Below are positions 2,204-31,418 of a stretch of 40,258 nucleotides of DNA, in pieces. The DNA comes from a virus: the IMG/VR virus record IMGVR_UViG_3300037088_001227, positions 1 to 40,258 of that record, one strand, 5' to 3'. Made by a program: the position numbers and the translations under genes. Numbering within the stretch: position 1 is the stretch's first letter; each line of letters opens with the position of its first letter. The notes under the pieces were generated by a model. That model was given only the letters and a program-made list of their open reading frames with translations. It ran no database searches and was not told the DNA's origin.

Positions 2204-3406
2204 TCACCTGTTGGTATAGTTATCCAGATTTTTTGCTGCGTTGCGCTGAGTTTCGATACCGATTGTCTTTGCAGAGGATCGCTGTGTGTTCACATCAATA
2301 TCTTTTGCTGATAATCGCTGTGCGTTCACATTAATATTCTTTGCTGATCGACGTTGAGCGCCGACGTCTATTCTCTTTGCTATCCATCGCAATTTCTCCA
2401 ACCACGACAAAGGTGTAATAAGAATCTCACCCAATAAGTACGAGATCCCATACATATTGCCATTCAAAGAAAGATGGAAGCCAAATAAACCCGACAAGAC
2501 AGACGATGCTGAAATATCTCCGGCAATCGAAAGAGTTTGGAACATAGAGCCAGTTGCCGTTGCAAATCCGGAAGCAACTCCATTAATAGAAAGAGTCTGA
2601 AACATCGATCCGGTTATTATAGCAGACCCAGCGGCAATTCCGGCAATCGAAAGAGATTTGGAAAGAATAGCCGCTAAAAAACTTGAAGCAGATATGCCAC
2701 CGCCGATAAAAACAGATCCATAAAGGTCGCCAGTAGAATACGCGACAGCAGAAATGTTTCCTGCAATAGAAAGAGATTTAGAAAGAAGAGCTGCTAAAAA
2801 ACTTGAAGCAGATATGCCACCGCCAATGGAAACAGATCCACAAAGGTCGCCGGCGGAAGATGCGACAGCAGAAATATTACCAGCAAGAACAATAGTAGAT
2901 GTTGCACCATAAATATAAAAACATAAATCATTTACGGCTCGAGCATACCATATTCCAGTATTATATAGTTGGACATTGTTGCCACCATGCGTAGGTGACG
3001 TCGTATCCTTTCCTACCGCAAGTGTGTTCGAGCCGTCTCCACCATTATATTCAATTTCAACGACATAATGGACTCCATTTCCTAATGGATATGTGCCATC
3101 AAAAGTAAATTCTACTAAATTTTTTGTTGTTGGAAAATTACTAGAGCCTATATCAACGGGACTGGATGTCGCCAAGACACTTCCCGTTGCGGTTCCAGTT
3201 GATCCATAGGTTCCAGTCATCGCATATAATTTTGCGTAAACATTCCCCGTTGGCGAGCCTATTTTATAACAATAAAATTTCACACTAGATAGTTTATCGC
3301 CATTGCCGGTAAAGCATTGAGCCTCTCCGATGTAAGCTGATGCGTTACAATTAGCCGATTGACTCCAATTGCTTTCACTATATGAATCAACTATCTCAGG
3401 CATCAT
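2204..3406 (-). CDS. Repeat-built fibre/spike-like protein
   Basis: 400-residue protein of three parts. Residues 1-170 look like a beta-sandwich, carbohydrate-binding style domain (TGNVYAKLYAMTG, then GNGVHYVVEIEYNGG). Residues 175-334 are eight tandem 20-residue units with consensus xGxISAxSxxxGxLxxxLSI, suggesting a stacked beta-solenoid or fibrous shaft. Residues 343-400 are nearly five copies of a 12-residue unit (AKxIxVxxQRxS), compatible with an amphipathic or trimerising tail. The start has GAGATGA directly upstream and a double ATG. There is no similarity I can name precisely. A tail fibre or spike role is inferred from architecture, and a second, different fibre is encoded at 28117-29802. 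Confidence 0.6.
   Translation of the reverse strand: MMPEIVDSYSESNWSQSANCNASAYIGEAQCFTGNGDKLSSVKFYCYKIGSPTGNVYAKLYAMTGTYGSTGTATGSVLATSSPVDIGSSNFPTTKNLVEFTFDGTYPLGNGVHYVVEIEYNGGDGSNTLAVGKDTTSPTHGGNNVQLYNTGIWYARAVNDLCFYIYGATSTIVLAGNISAVASSAGDLCGSVSIGGGISASSFLAALLSKSLSIAGNISAVAYSTGDLYGSVFIGGGISASSFLAAILSKSLSIAGIAAGSAIITGSMFQTLSINGVASGFATATGSMFQTLSIAGDISASSVLSGLFGFHLSLNGNMYGISYLLGEILITPLSWLEKLRWIAKRIDVGAQRRSAKNINVNAQRLSAKDIDVNTQRSSAKTIGIETQRNAAKNLDNYTNR
2207..2380 (-). repeat. 12-residue (36-bp) coding tandem repeat
   Basis: The last 58 codons of the fibre-like gene form units AKRIDVGAQRRS, AKNINVNAQRLS, AKDIDVNTQRSS, AKTIGIETQRNA and AKNLDNYTNR. The invariant AK and QR positions recur every 12 residues. 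Confidence 0.85.
2405..2884 (-). repeat. Eight 20-residue (60-bp) coding tandem repeats
   Basis: Residues 175-334 of the fibre-like gene split exactly into eight 20-residue units. Units 1-2 and 3-4 are a recent 40-residue duplication (AGNISAV.../GGGISASSFLAA...), and units 5-6 share GSMFQTLSI. Unit number may vary between relatives by recombination. Confidence 0.85.
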
Positions 3407-23128: not shown

Positions 23129-24310
23129 ATGAATAAAAAAGAAATCGTGATTTTTGGAAGCGAAACGGATTTATCCAGTCAGGTATTAAAAATCGGTCAA
23201 GCCGATCCGGTTGTACCGCTGGAATTTGACCTCCTCGTCGAAGGTGCAGCATATCCAAAAGCAAAAGACATCAATGGAAAGATTCAGCCATTTATTATCA
23301 CAGCGGAGCATATTGATTCTGCCGTAAGGCATCTTGCTCAAAGACGAGAACGCGCGCCCAAAAGAGATCTCGTTGTGGACTATGAGCATCAGACTTTAAA
23401 AGACATTCAAGCTCCGGCTGCCGGCTGGATGAACGGTCTTGTCTCTATAGTACGCGATGGCAAGAAAGTATTGCGCGCACAGATGAGCGAATGGACAAGT
23501 AAAGCGAATGAATATTTAAAGAATCATGAATATCGATATGTCTCACCTGTCTTTGCTTTGAATGGAAGAGATAAAGTCACCGGCGAGATTTTCCCCTGCA
23601 TGATTCTCAGTGCTGCTCTCACGAACGAACCTTTGATCGACGAATTACAGCCAATAGTAGCTAAACAATATTTTCAAACCATTTCAGGAAAGGATACCAG
23701 TATGAACGAAGTCATTAAAAAACTCTGTGCGTTTCTCGGGATTGCCGAGACCGCAGACGAACAAACGGTTGCGGCGAAGTTTACGGAATTCGCAGCGAAC
23801 GTAAAGACAGCCCTGGCTGCTACGACCGAGATCGCAGCAAAAGATGTGCTCATGTATATCTCGGGCGCCAAGATCGCCATTGCCGCCAAAACCGATCTCG
23901 TAAAAGTGATCTGCGCGAAAGATGGCGCGACGATCGAGGAAGCTACCGCAATTCACATCGCTGCAAAAGAGAGCGCGGCAAAAGTAGTAACGCTCCAAAC
24001 CGAACTCGATGCATTGAAAACGAAGGAAGTCAATGCGGCAGTCGACGCGATTGTTGCAAAAGGAATTACCGATGGCAAGATCACTCCTGCGACAAAAGAT
24101 GCGATGCGCATTTTTGCCGCGAAAGACATAAAAGCATTCGAGACGTACCTTGCGGCCGCGCCGGTGATTCTGCCGAGCGGAAAGCTGCCTGAAGGCGGTG
24201 AACAGATCGTTGCTGGAAAAGATGGATTGACCGATGCTGACAAAGCAATCGCAGCAACCTTCAAGCTGAAACCTGAAGATGTTGCAAAATACAATCCGGC
24301 GAAGAAGTAG
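23129..24310 (+). CDS. Mu gpI-like head maturation protease with scaffold domain
   Basis: 393 residues. The N-terminal half is the protease: VVDYEHQTL (residues 82-90) is the hallmark of gpI-like proteins, with FDLLVEGAAYPKAKD before it and YRYVSPVF and SAALTNEP after. The C-terminal half (from about 192) is helical, Ala/Lys-rich scaffold. Protease and scaffold are made from one gene, with a second start inside, as for Mu I and Z. It should process the head shell before packaging. It is followed by cement and capsid genes as expected. Confidence 0.88.
   Translation: MNKKEIVIFGSETDLSSQVLKIGQADPVVPLEFDLLVEGAAYPKAKDINGKIQPFIITAEHIDSAVRHLAQRRERAPKRDLVVDYEHQTLKDIQAPAAGWMNGLVSIVRDGKKVLRAQMSEWTSKANEYLKNHEYRYVSPVFALNGRDKVTGEIFPCMILSAALTNEPLIDELQPIVAKQYFQTISGKDTSMNEVIKKLCAFLGIAETADEQTVAAKFTEFAANVKTALAATTEIAAKDVLMYISGAKIAIAAKTDLVKVICAKDGATIEEATAIHIAAKESAAKVVTLQTELDALKTKEVNAAVDAIVAKGITDGKITPATKDAMRIFAAKDIKAFETYLAAAPVILPSGKLPEGGEQIVAGKDGLTDADKAIAATFKLKPEDVAKYNPAKK
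23702..24310 (+). CDS. Nested scaffold protein (gpZ-like internal start)
   Basis: In frame with the protease, starting MNEVIKKLCAFLGIAETADE at codon 192. AGGAAAGGA lies 7 bases before this ATG, a better ribosome site than that of the full-length gene. The 202-residue product would be the free scaffold around which the capsid assembles. The overlap is known from Mu; here it is inferred from the ribosome site and domain boundary. Confidence 0.7.
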   Translation: MNEVIKKLCAFLGIAETADEQTVAAKFTEFAANVKTALAATTEIAAKDVLMYISGAKIAIAAKTDLVKVICAKDGATIEEATAIHIAAKESAAKVVTLQTELDALKTKEVNAAVDAIVAKGITDGKITPATKDAMRIFAAKDIKAFETYLAAAPVILPSGKLPEGGEQIVAGKDGLTDADKAIAATFKLKPEDVAKYNPAKK

Positions 24311-24376: not shown

Positions 24377-25303
24377 ATGATACACAGTTTGATTATTCTG
24401 GCGCTGCTTTTCGGAGCTGCGCTGTTGATTCAGAAGGTCACCGGCGGAACGGTGTTTCCATTTGCGATGACGGTATTGGCTCAGGACTGGACGGGTTCGG
24501 AACGCGAAGGTGAATTCTTTTCTTATCCTGTTCTCACCGGAGTATTAATTTATGAAAATGCAATCGTTGTGCTCGATGCAGCCGGCTATGCAAAGCCTGG
24601 AGTCCCCGGCACAGGTCTTATTTGTTGCGGACGATCGACGCAGCAAATAGATAATACGCTTGGTCAATCCGGCGATCTGTTTGTGCGGGTAAAACGCGGC
24701 GTCTTCGCCTACAATAACAGTGCAGCCGCAGATTTAATTGCGCAGACTGAGATCGGAGATGCATGTTATATCGTCGACGATAACACAGTCGCAAAGACGG
24801 ATGGCGTTGGTACACGCAGCGTTGCTGGTAAAATTGTTGACGTCGATGCAAGTTATGTCTGGGTATTGATGCCGGGCAATACGATTTCGATCAGCGGCGA
24901 TTTAGTCTCGACAAATAATCTCAGCGATGTGACGAGCAAACCCACTGCCCGCGCGAATCTCGGCGCAAACCTTGTCGCATTAACGCTCGATGTTGCTCTT
25001 CTTAATGGCACGGCAGTATATCGCATTGCATCGCCCGTTGCCGGAACGATTACGAAAATACAAACGAGTTTGAAAGCCGCTCTCGGGACCGGTAATGCAA
25101 CTTTGACCGGTCAGATCGCGGCGGTAGCAATTACAACCGGCGTCGTTACATTGGTTCAAGCCGGATCAGCCGCAGGTCAGGTGAACGTGTGTTCTCCTTC
25201 TGCTGCGAATACGGTCGCGATTGGAAGCGATATTAATTTTACCGTCGGCGGTTCAAATTCGGTAGCGACGGGATGCACGGTTACAATTTTGATTGCGACA
25301 TAA
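24377..25303 (+). CDS. Capsid cement/decoration protein with leader and fibre-type C-terminus
   Basis: 308 residues, AAAGGAG 6 bases upstream. Residues 1-38 form a hydrophobic N-terminal module (IHSLIILALLFGAALLIQKV) like that of the protein at 3421-3996. Residues about 55-170 match Mu-like head decoration proteins: RVKRGVFAYNNSAAADLIAQ, GDACYIVDDNTVAKTDGVGT, RSVAGKIVDVDASYVWVLMP. The C-terminal part (NNLSDVTSKPTARANLGA, then VYRIASPVAGTITKIQTSLK) is a tail-fibre style sequence. It sits between the scaffold and the major capsid, the normal place for cement proteins. The added C-terminal domain would probably be displayed on the head surface. Confidence 0.72.
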   Translation: MIHSLIILALLFGAALLIQKVTGGTVFPFAMTVLAQDWTGSEREGEFFSYPVLTGVLIYENAIVVLDAAGYAKPGVPGTGLICCGRSTQQIDNTLGQSGDLFVRVKRGVFAYNNSAAADLIAQTEIGDACYIVDDNTVAKTDGVGTRSVAGKIVDVDASYVWVLMPGNTISISGDLVSTNNLSDVTSKPTARANLGANLVALTLDVALLNGTAVYRIASPVAGTITKIQTSLKAALGTGNATLTGQIAAVAITTGVVTLVQAGSAAGQVNVCSPSAANTVAIGSDINFTVGGSNSVATGCTVTILIAT

Positions 25304-25413: not shown

Positions 25414-26412
25414 ATGAAACGAATTTTGAAATGGACTTTGATCGTGCTTGCGTTTGTCGCATTCTTTGCGCATCCGGCGGGCGCGGTCGGAATGCTTGCA
25501 GCGGGAATAGTTATTAATCCTGCAAACATCCAGGGACTTTATAAATCATGGAACACGATTTTTAATCAAGCGCTCTCTGCAGCCCAGCCGCAATGGCAAA
25601 AAATTGCGATGGAAATTCCATCGACAACATTGGACCAAGGATATGCATGGCTTGGCGCGTGGCCGAAACTGCGCGAGTTCATCGGCGAACGCCAGATTAA
25701 AAAATTAGCAGCAAATAATTATACTATTAGAAATAAAACATTCGAAAGCACCGTGCAGGTCGAACGCGCTGCAATTGAAGACGATCAATACGGTGTCTAT
25801 GGAATGATGATGGCTGCTATGGGAACGTCCGTTCGGCTGCATCCGGATGAACTTATATTCGGATTACTCAACGGTGGATTCACTACTATAAAAAGTTACG
25901 ACGGTTATACTCTTTATTCGGCCAATCATGCGAGTGGATCAAATACAGCTGTAGCCGCATTGAGTTTCGCAACCGGAGGCAGTTATGCAATTGCCAAAGC
26001 CGCTTTGGGACGTGTGAAGGATAGTGAAGGACGCCCGCTCTTCTACGGCAGCGAAAGAGATATTCTTGTTGTAGGTCCGGAAATGGATGAAAAAGCACGG
26101 ACCGGTTTGAATGCTGATTTTATTTCTATTGCCAGCGGCAGCACTCAAAACAACCCGTGGAAAAATTCAGCCGACTTAGTTGTAAGTCCGCAGATCACAA
26201 GCGCAACGGCATGGTTCCTTATCCGGCCATTTGCCGGTTTGATGCCGCTCATTCATCAGACGCGTATTGCTCCGGAATTTGTCGAGAAGACAAATCCGAA
26301 TCAGAGCGATCTTGTCTTCATGCATGATCTCTATATTTATGGCGTGCGTGTAAGATGGAATGCAGGTGTCGGTTTGCATCAGCTCACGTATGGTAGCACA
26401 GGCGCAAGCTAA
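25414..26412 (+). CDS. Major capsid protein, Mu gpT-like, with signal-like leader
   Basis: 332 residues, AAGGAG 7 bases upstream. After a hydrophobic leader (residues 1-27, MKRILKWTLIVLAFVAFFAH then PAGAVGM) the HK97-fold gpT sequence starts at about 35: VINPANIQGLYKSWNTIFNQ, then SSTLD-type region, YAWLGAWPKLREFIGERQIK and YTIRNKTFESTVQVERAAIE. Mu gpT itself begins at the equivalent of residue 33, so the leader is an addition. A second ATG at residue 27 is possible but has no ribosome site. Whether the leader is removed by the protease or by a signal peptidase is unknown. Confidence 0.88.
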   Translation: MKRILKWTLIVLAFVAFFAHPAGAVGMLAAGIVINPANIQGLYKSWNTIFNQALSAAQPQWQKIAMEIPSTTLDQGYAWLGAWPKLREFIGERQIKKLAANNYTIRNKTFESTVQVERAAIEDDQYGVYGMMMAAMGTSVRLHPDELIFGLLNGGFTTIKSYDGYTLYSANHASGSNTAVAALSFATGGSYAIAKAALGRVKDSEGRPLFYGSERDILVVGPEMDEKARTGLNADFISIASGSTQNNPWKNSADLVVSPQITSATAWFLIRPFAGLMPLIHQTRIAPEFVEKTNPNQSDLVFMHDLYIYGVRVRWNAGVGLHQLTYGSTGAS

Positions 26413-26455
26413 ACCCCCTCTATTTCTCCCCCTAGAAAAGGGGGAGAGTTTTAAG
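26412..26455 (+). repeat. C/G-rich stem-loop repeat C6
   Basis: CCCCCTCTATTTCTCCCCCT, a short loop, then AAAGGGGGAGAG. It begins at the stop codon of the capsid gene. Confidence 0.85.
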
Positions 26456-26556
26456 GATGCTGAACGTCTCGTCGGTTCCCAATAGCCGGCGGGACGGTGA
26501 GCCTCCTTCAAGTCCGGAGAGGAGTAACACCTCTCCGGATTTCTAAAAGATAAAGC

Positions 26557-26580
26557 GGACACGATGTATCGTGTCCCTAC
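26557..26580. repeat. REP-like palindrome A11 (tandem with A12)
   Basis: GGACACGATGTATCGTGTCC followed by CTAC. Nearly perfect palindrome (GATG/TATC centre). Confidence 0.8.
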
Positions 26581-26586
26581 AAAAGC

Positions 26587-26610
26587 GGGCATAATATATT
26601 GTGTTCCTAC
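26587..26610. repeat. REP-like palindrome A12 (tandem with A11)
   Basis: GGGCATAATATATTGTGTTC followed by CTAC, degraded arms. The pair forms the leader of the next gene; the same frame is open through it, which explains a longer spurious start at 26564. Confidence 0.75.
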
Positions 26611-26623
26611 AAATAAAAATATC

Positions 26624-28030
26624 ATGTCAAAAAAAGTAGGCATATCAGCTACATGGGTCGGCAGCGTTCTTTCGCATTCCAACGCCGTGAGAGCAGCATT
26701 TCTTAGTGGCATGCCTTCAGGTTGGGATTTCGATTTGATTATCGATGCAACTAGTTATGCACAAATCAACAACCCGCCCGACTATTATAAATGTGACAAT
26801 GGTAGTAATTTCGGAGAATACTTAATTGCCAATAATTATTTAATCGCTGTCGAACCCGTCTCAGCTGCTTTTTCAGATAAATTCAATATTGATCAGATGC
26901 ATGATGCCGGCATCTATATTGTCGCAGGGCATGATGCAGACGATAATAATCGTTATGCTGATCCAATTACATATCCACAAGCACCACCATATCTTTATAG
27001 TGCGATTACCTGTGGATGGGGTGAAGCGTACAATACTATGTCATGGGGACCGGGATTAGAGCTTTTCGACTTTCTTTCCGATTGGTTAATAATCGGTGAG
27101 AGTATAGCGGTCGGTGTTGTTGCGTCGAAACTTGCAGCGATCATCGATGCGCATCCGGAATATAATTATTACGATGCACGCCAACATCTAAGACAGATAT
27201 GCAGTCTTTATCCTCTCTGGACGGAAGCGGATGGTTTTGGACGTCCAGATATTACAAAAAATATTAATACTCTCGATTTGGGCATACCTACCGAAATTAT
27301 CGCGACAAAAAGCTTGGATAATTTATCGGTGATTCTTTCCTGGGTAGACTTCAAAACTACACGCTGGATGAAGACACGAGTAACTTCTGATAGTGGAGAA
27401 ATTGTTTACGAAGGATCGTTCCAATCTTGCCGATGGTTCAGTGATATAGTGGGATCGAAAACGTTTACGATCCAATCCGTTGATGTTGATGGCAATCTTT
27501 CGGCCGCATTAGCTTGCGCGAAGATCACAGTGATCGGACTTCTGCAAACAAGAATTCCAGCTGCATCGATCGAAGCGGAAGCTGCACCACAGTATGATGG
27601 TTATTGCACGCAGGATGGATCTGCCGACGGCGATATTGCACCGGCGCGGATAAGTCTCGAGCAGCTCCGCCAGCTTACCGGCGATTCTGAAACAATCGTT
27701 ATTCAATCCGTCATCGATGAGGCGATAGAATGGGCTGACGATCATATAAATAGTTATGCCGCCAAAAAATATATTGTGCCGATGAATCCCGTTCCATCGA
27801 AGGTGAGAAGTCTGAGCGCAGATCTCGCGACGTTTAAATTGTTTGAAAAACGATCCATGAATACCGGCGGCGATGTGCCGGAGACATATCGTAAAATGTT
27901 CGACAATTCAGATTCCTTTTTACAAAAAGTAGCTGCTGGCAAAGCCGTAATTGATGGAGCAATAACTCCACCCGCAAGTGTGACAAACACGGGTGGATGG
28001 GTTGGCGGTAAGAAAAGAATAGAATGGTGA
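26624..28030 (+). CDS. Degenerate subtilase-like domain fused to gp36/DUF1320 neck protein
   Basis: 468 residues from the ATG at 26624. The same frame runs upstream to 26564 through two REP elements. Residues 5-210 resemble subtilases in the second half: IYIVAGHDADDNN (oxyanion-loop AGN changed to AGH, 101-103), PYLYSAITCGWG, and GESIAVGVVASKLAAIIDAH (Ser160 in the place of GTSxA). The usual Asp and His of the triad are not evident, so it is probably inactive. A beta-rich linker (220-310, Fn3-like) follows. Residues 343-445 are DUF1320/gp36: SLEQLRQLTGDSETIVIQSV, IDEAIEWADDHINSYAAKKY. Located straight after the capsid, as gp36 is in Mu-like phages. Only the C-terminal call is firm. Confidence 0.72.
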   Translation: MSKKVGISATWVGSVLSHSNAVRAAFLSGMPSGWDFDLIIDATSYAQINNPPDYYKCDNGSNFGEYLIANNYLIAVEPVSAAFSDKFNIDQMHDAGIYIVAGHDADDNNRYADPITYPQAPPYLYSAITCGWGEAYNTMSWGPGLELFDFLSDWLIIGESIAVGVVASKLAAIIDAHPEYNYYDARQHLRQICSLYPLWTEADGFGRPDITKNINTLDLGIPTEIIATKSLDNLSVILSWVDFKTTRWMKTRVTSDSGEIVYEGSFQSCRWFSDIVGSKTFTIQSVDVDGNLSAALACAKITVIGLLQTRIPAASIEAEAAPQYDGYCTQDGSADGDIAPARISLEQLRQLTGDSETIVIQSVIDEAIEWADDHINSYAAKKYIVPMNPVPSKVRSLSADLATFKLFEKRSMNTGGDVPETYRKMFDNSDSFLQKVAAGKAVIDGAITPPASVTNTGGWVGGKKRIEW

Positions 28031-28040
28031 TGAAAAAAAA

Positions 28041-28108
28041 TGAGTGATTGGGAGATTGAGTAATCGGGTGAGTGGGAGATTGAGTGAATTGGTGATTGGG
28101 TGATTGAA
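28041..28108 (+). repeat. TGATT-rich array B7
   Basis: GAGTGATTGGGAGATTGAGT and further units over about 68 bases, filling the gap before the tail fibre gene. Confidence 0.85.
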
Positions 28109-28116
28109 AAGATAAA

Positions 28117-30860: not shown

Positions 30861-31418
30861 ATGGGTAATTCAAATTTTACAAATCTCAATAGAACTCTCG
30901 GCGAGATGCTGGCGCGCGCGGGCGATCTTTCGAAACCCCTCGCAGAAATCGGGATGTTCATGAGTAGTGAAATGAAAAAGAATTTTGATGAAGGCGGCAG
31001 GCCCGATACCTGGCCGGAATCCCAGCGTGTGCAAAGACATGGCGGCCAGACGCTGCGAGATAGTGGAACGTTAAGGAACTCGATAGATTATGAAGTAACG
31101 CCGGATGGTGTTAATGTCGGGCCATCTGCAGTTGGAAGGAAGCATTTAACCGATCCGAGAATTCTTGCAGCTCTTAATTTTGGCGCTGAGATACAACATT
31201 ATCAACGACAAGAAATATTTTTCCGCAAAAGAAAGTCAAGGGGAATTCACAAGGGACAATTTAAAACAGGAACGGAAGAAGATGTTGGGCTTCGTGGAAT
31301 GAAATTCGGTGCGCATGCAACGAAGCTATTCCCTTACAACTATACATATGTCCCAGATGATGCGAGCGAGACAATGGGACAAATTCTATGCGATTATATT
31401 ATTAGGCAGCCGTCATGA
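30861..31418 (+). CDS. Phage virion morphogenesis protein (gpG/tail completion type)
   Basis: 185 residues. It matches phage virion morphogenesis proteins: MSSEMKKNFDEGGRPDTWPE, then QTLRDSGTLRNSIDYEVTPD and GVNVGPSAVGRKHLTDPRIL. Usually involved in tail completion or joining. The ATG has no strong Shine-Dalgarno, being preceded by repeat sequence. The stop overlaps the next gene's start by 4 bases, so translation is coupled. Confidence 0.75.
   Translation: MGNSNFTNLNRTLGEMLARAGDLSKPLAEIGMFMSSEMKKNFDEGGRPDTWPESQRVQRHGGQTLRDSGTLRNSIDYEVTPDGVNVGPSAVGRKHLTDPRILAALNFGAEIQHYQRQEIFFRKRKSRGIHKGQFKTGTEEDVGLRGMKFGAHATKLFPYNYTYVPDDASETMGQILCDYIIRQPS

Follow-up and report, generated by a model that had tools for sequence, protein, structure and literature searches.

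The tail sheath protein of phages has an inactive subtilisin-like domain (PF04984), and Ig/Fn3 domains occur as additions on phage structural proteins. The head-tail adaptor of phage Mu, gp36, is a dodecamer whose C-terminal arm inserts into the clip domains of the portal (PMC11915804). In phage JBD30 the adaptor, too, is dodecameric, and its C-terminus lies between the portal clips (PMC11445458). As the C-terminal end sits at the portal clips in both phages, an N-terminal extension on the outside of the adaptor is conceivable. The gene described here would represent such an extended adaptor. Like the Ig/Fn3 additions, it places accessory material on a conserved virion protein, but it adds a degenerate protease segment and the carrier is the adaptor. 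Like the tail sheath, it would combine an inactive subtilisin-like fold with a structural protein, but the gene is a different one, and Pfam returns no PF04984 match for it.

The window, the whole stretch of DNA that was analysed, is a 40,258-base virus record from a fen metagenome. The fusion ORF occupies 26624..28030 on the plus strand as one uninterrupted frame, from ATG 26624 to TGA 28030, and encodes 468 amino acids, as the initial annotation had correctly placed it in coordinates, strand and frame. It joins a subtilase-like segment, an Fn3-like segment, a linker and the gp36 adaptor, and is a real fusion. The gene is found, identical, in the MAG contig PLMS01000114.1 of an Ignavibacteriae bacterium, and its carrier is a Mu-like prophage of such a bacterium. 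An alternative upstream ATG at 26564 sits within a palindromic repeat, making 26624 the better start. There is no good Shine-Dalgarno sequence at 26624, and several genes of the phage have AAGGAG or similar. The GC3 of the S8 part is 0.335, the lowest among the compared genes (0.35-0.46 in the others), compatible with a recent foreign origin. Capture from the present host was considered and rejected; the host genome has S8 genes, but its only match to the segment is the prophage itself.

The adaptor part of the fusion is readily recognized. Residues 341-448 match PF07030 (Mu gp36/DUF1320) with an E-value of 2.3e-18 and 67 bits against a gathering cut-off of 24.7, and they also match phrog_195 (head-tail adaptor), bearing out the earlier assignment of this domain. 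The gp36 part spans 27572..28027 (plus strand), where DNA homology to the stand-alone gp36 gene of the closest relative, L081, starts at 27572. As in Mu-like phages, it is positioned after the gene for the major capsid protein gpT (25414..26412, plus strand, E 2e-72), in a Mu-like head gene order that is collinear with L081. An ORF at 23129-24310, Mu gpI-like protease/scaffold by position and sequence only, lies upstream, and a tail-completion/Neck1-like ORF at 30861 lies downstream. The N-terminus of gpT (window 25414-25500) has a signal-peptide-like hydrophobic leader, MKRILKWTLIVLAFVAFFAHPAGA. A similar leader is found in L076-L078 (MKRILLVAMLLVVALPALASA) and L079 (MKKLFFVLMLSLVAVMPIFASS), is present in L081, and is absent from the more distant L080. 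The ORF at 24377 begins with a membrane-type helix.

The fusion ORF differs from Mu gp36 in its ~310 extra N-terminal residues. Residues 1-219 (26624..27280, plus strand) are a subtilase-like segment that would correspond to the part of an S8 protein beyond the catalytic His helix, and support is best for residues 90-217. No Pfam, PHROG or meaningful PDB sequence match was obtained for residues 1-310, and no PF00082 (Peptidase S8) match is listed for the ORF at E-values up to 10. When residues 1-311 were searched by tblastn against 396 genomes of the phylum, 12 matches other than the gene itself reached E ≤ 0.01, the best having an E-value of 1.1e-4 for one genome, equivalent to about 0.04 over all 396. 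Eight of these 12 are S8 proteins that match at the Ser loop, between residues 152 and 225, and they are not independent observations because the proteins are related to one another. Compared to Bacteroidota S8 subtilases of the L005-type clade, which are apparently secreted and have a C-terminal sorting tail, the segment is 31-38% identical over ~55-68 residues around GTSxA...SLYP...GxG, and keeps the order of S8 motifs across residues 90-217. It is without the catalytic Asp and His, the oxyanion Asn and the N-terminal core of these proteases, and is joined to a phage adaptor.

Profile comparisons agree with this assignment to differing degrees. A profile built from S8 loci gives the query 20.6 bits, while the best of 10,000 shuffles reached 7.6, but part of its set had been picked for similarity to the query; once those sequences are removed, the score falls to 3.3 bits, which is not significant. 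When similarity to a single S8 protein, and not to the query, decided which S8 sequences entered the set, the score was 12.5 bits and the best of 20,000 shuffles reached 9.3, so that the serine-loop pattern claimed in the initial annotation stands above chance, if weakly. With hhalign, residues 93-217 match the query-independent S8 set at an E-value of 3.5e-5 and a probability of 72%. In a test of the serine register, the catalytic GTS of 14 of 60 other S8 proteins aligned with GES in the query; 60 shuffles that keep GES averaged 0.5 such proteins and never gave more than 9. Among 18,950 NCBIfam families, the only match is the subtilisin-like QhpE (NF049966), with residues 90-192 aligned to profile positions 109-210 at an E-value of 0.022 and 14 bits, far below the 165-bit cut-off. 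QhpE-like S8 proteins of the phylum (L184, L185) gave no useful pairwise alignment with the segment. Phage S8 proteins (L084-L087, L119-L183), used only as an alignment and control set, are not close to it. Within this set, viral contigs L167-L170 and L174-L182 encode S8 domains in proteins of ~500-660 amino acids, a group apart from the 350-aa type (L119-L129).

It is quite unlikely that the N-terminal segment is unrelated to subtilases and that chance similarity has drawn attention to some other alpha/beta domain. The missing Pfam S8 match, the mere 3.3 bits of the generic profile lacking the query-selected clade, and the score of residues 40-157, which on their own do no better than shuffles, would all fit such an origin, but several partly independent tests agree on one register. 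The similarity, weak but recurrent, thus makes S8 ancestry of residues ~90-217 very probable, and residues 1-90 are not assigned to S8 with confidence.

From a single sequence, AlphaFold2 gave no usable model of the segment alone (pLDDT 32). When supplied with an alignment of S8 proteins it reached a pTM of 0.64 and a pLDDT of 61, with residues 161-210 at 76-87. For this model, the top Foldseek matches are subtilisins in the PDB (E 8.6e-5, TM about 0.55) and predominantly phage S8 proteins in BFVD. Because the alignment consisted of S8 proteins, the model is a compatibility check and not an independent proof of fold. The following residues, ~219-310 (27278..27553, plus strand), plausibly form an Fn3-like beta domain: residues 225-305 have a weak tblastn match (E 0.006) to a secreted Bacteroidota protein, L013, and no Fn3-type Pfam match was found for residues 219-310.

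The oxyanion pattern reported in the initial annotation is not intact. At the position of the S8 motif AGN the segment reads AGHD (residues 101-104, 26924..26935, plus strand), and when the segment is aligned with 21 S8 proteins of viruses, His103 falls in the column of the catalytic Asn. The query starts after the HGTHVAG segment in this alignment, and Ser160 is kept within GES (residues 158-160, 27095..27103, plus strand), at the position of the catalytic-Ser motif GTS. Only Ser160 of the catalytic Asp/His/Ser is aligned in the best alignment; the suspicion that Asp and His are missing is thus borne out, and in an alternative register the His of SHSNAV near the N-terminus may serve as the catalytic His. 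A working protease is unlikely because the catalytic segment and the oxyanion Asn are absent from the best alignment, and with the catalytic residues missing, an active protease was ruled out as an explanation. Of the proposal of an inactive subtilase module on gp36, a subtilase-derived, apparently inactive segment on gp36 remains, as judged from sequence, and a binding module displayed at the head-tail joint would be compatible with the known features of the Mu adaptor.

The 396 genomes of the phylum have 35 gp36 matches, one of which is the fusion gene itself. The other 34 sit in open frames of 131-252 amino acids, and gp36 stands alone in all six phage contigs as well, so that the search for the fusion in relatives found no second case among these 40 genes. 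Scans of IMG/VR with short peptide patterns, which need exact matches and can miss distant relatives, did not find the same fusion, annotated phages have no match to residues 1-311, and plasmids have four chance-level matches, one of them S8. A literature search for such fusions found nothing relevant.

Comparison to L081 places the extension in a variable interval. The gp36 of L081 is 86% identical and begins MADPETEADPQYDGYC; its ATG start codon is GCT in the window. In blastn, homology between the window and L081 ends after a two-hairpin RNA-like element 3' of gpT and restarts at 27572, the start of gp36 in L081. Between these points L081 (4515-5947) has ORFs of 108 and 365 amino acids that are unrelated to the fusion extension, without Pfam matches or convincing PHROG matches. 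In L076-L079, gp36 follows ~200 nt after gpT. Since L081 homology breaks here, the contents differ and the spacing in L076-L079 is short, ~26545-27570 is variable cargo, fused to gp36 in this phage, and Mu-like phages of this group appear to have an exchangeable cargo slot in the interval from gpT to gp36. This bears on the idea that the gene is an artefact, with two sequences joined or a stop codon deleted by an error. The window and PLMS01000114.1, identical over the gene, are probably one assembly, but L081 is collinear on both flanks and differs in the contents of the slot, as at a natural insertion site, and an artefact is most improbable.

The two-hairpin element (26453..26543, plus strand; about 4355-4450 in L081) forms the 5' border of the slot. 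Its MFE z-score is -7.2, L081 has the same fold with different stem sequences, and no Rfam family matches at gathering score. The palindromic repeat directly upstream of the fusion ORF (26556..26600, plus strand) belongs to family D2, which ends in CCCCTACAAAA and, like family D1 (an 8-base-type repeat, GTGATTGGGTGATTG; e.g., 28035-28116), is found between phage genes. Exact copies of D1 and D2 in the host genome are mostly on the prophage contig (4/7 and 5/6, respectively). Elsewhere in the window, a 400-aa ORF at 2204-3406 (minus strand) has internal 120-nt tandem repeats (2519, 2638, 2758).

The explanation preferred here, with a probability of about 0.45, is that a captured subtilase fragment and an Fn3-like domain in the cargo slot became fused in frame to the adaptor, giving an inactive collar on the neck. 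In this reading, the C-terminal part of an S8 subtilase, lacking the catalytic Asp/His segment, would have entered the slot together with an Fn3-like domain, and their frame would continue into gp36, whose own ATG is lost. The adaptor subunit would still dock on the portal by its C-terminal arm while carrying ~310 extra residues at its N-terminus. With a dodecameric adaptor as in Mu, the neck could be surrounded by as many as 12 inactive subtilase/Fn3 modules, which would serve as a binding or decorating collar and not as a protease. Observed are the ORF, the gp36 domain, the weak S8 homology of residues 90-217, the loss of catalytic residues and a slot that differs in L081; from these we infer that the extension is expressed, folds, is displayed and binds. 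Counting against this explanation are the single instance, in one assembly, and the poor Shine-Dalgarno context of ATG 26624; in addition, the truncated subtilase core may not fold, and twelve additions of ~34 kDa at one neck may be sterically difficult. That the fragment has become a receptor- or polymer-binding collar on the 12-fold adaptor by way of the exchangeable slot is a doubtful, though possible, extension.

The main rival, nearly as likely as an inactive collar, is a functionless relic: an incomplete remnant of a captured subtilase gene whose frame matches that of gp36 by accident, with an extension that is tolerated or a prophage that is defective. The N-terminal catalytic half and the oxyanion Asn are missing, no clear ribosome-binding site precedes the ORF, which follows directly on a palindromic repeat, and no second example was found; it is the lack of a ribosome-binding site, the truncation and the uniqueness that bring the relic so close. 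Against it, more than 310 codons before gp36 are free of stops and frameshifts, and because the adaptor's own ATG is lost, gp36 synthesis seems to depend on the fusion ORF, or else on a GTG within it. Such an internal start, e.g., the in-frame GTG at 27530, would yield a gp36 that, like the one of L081, has a short N-terminal tail, and a cut by the prohead protease, for which the Mu gpI-like ORF upstream is the candidate, would likewise keep the subtilase part out of the virion. No Shine-Dalgarno sequence precedes GTG 27530, and two separate products are an unlikely outcome.

Whether as inactive collar or relic, the gene looks like a one-off capture and not a widespread new protein family, a variant of the accessory-domain fusions on phage structural proteins. 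As a single and possibly decaying case it changes little on its own. Should it be expressed, it would provide a natural case of protein display on a dodecameric adaptor ring and of an adaptor N-terminus that tolerates a large domain. The finding also suggests that the interval between gpT and gp36 is an exchangeable slot in these phages.
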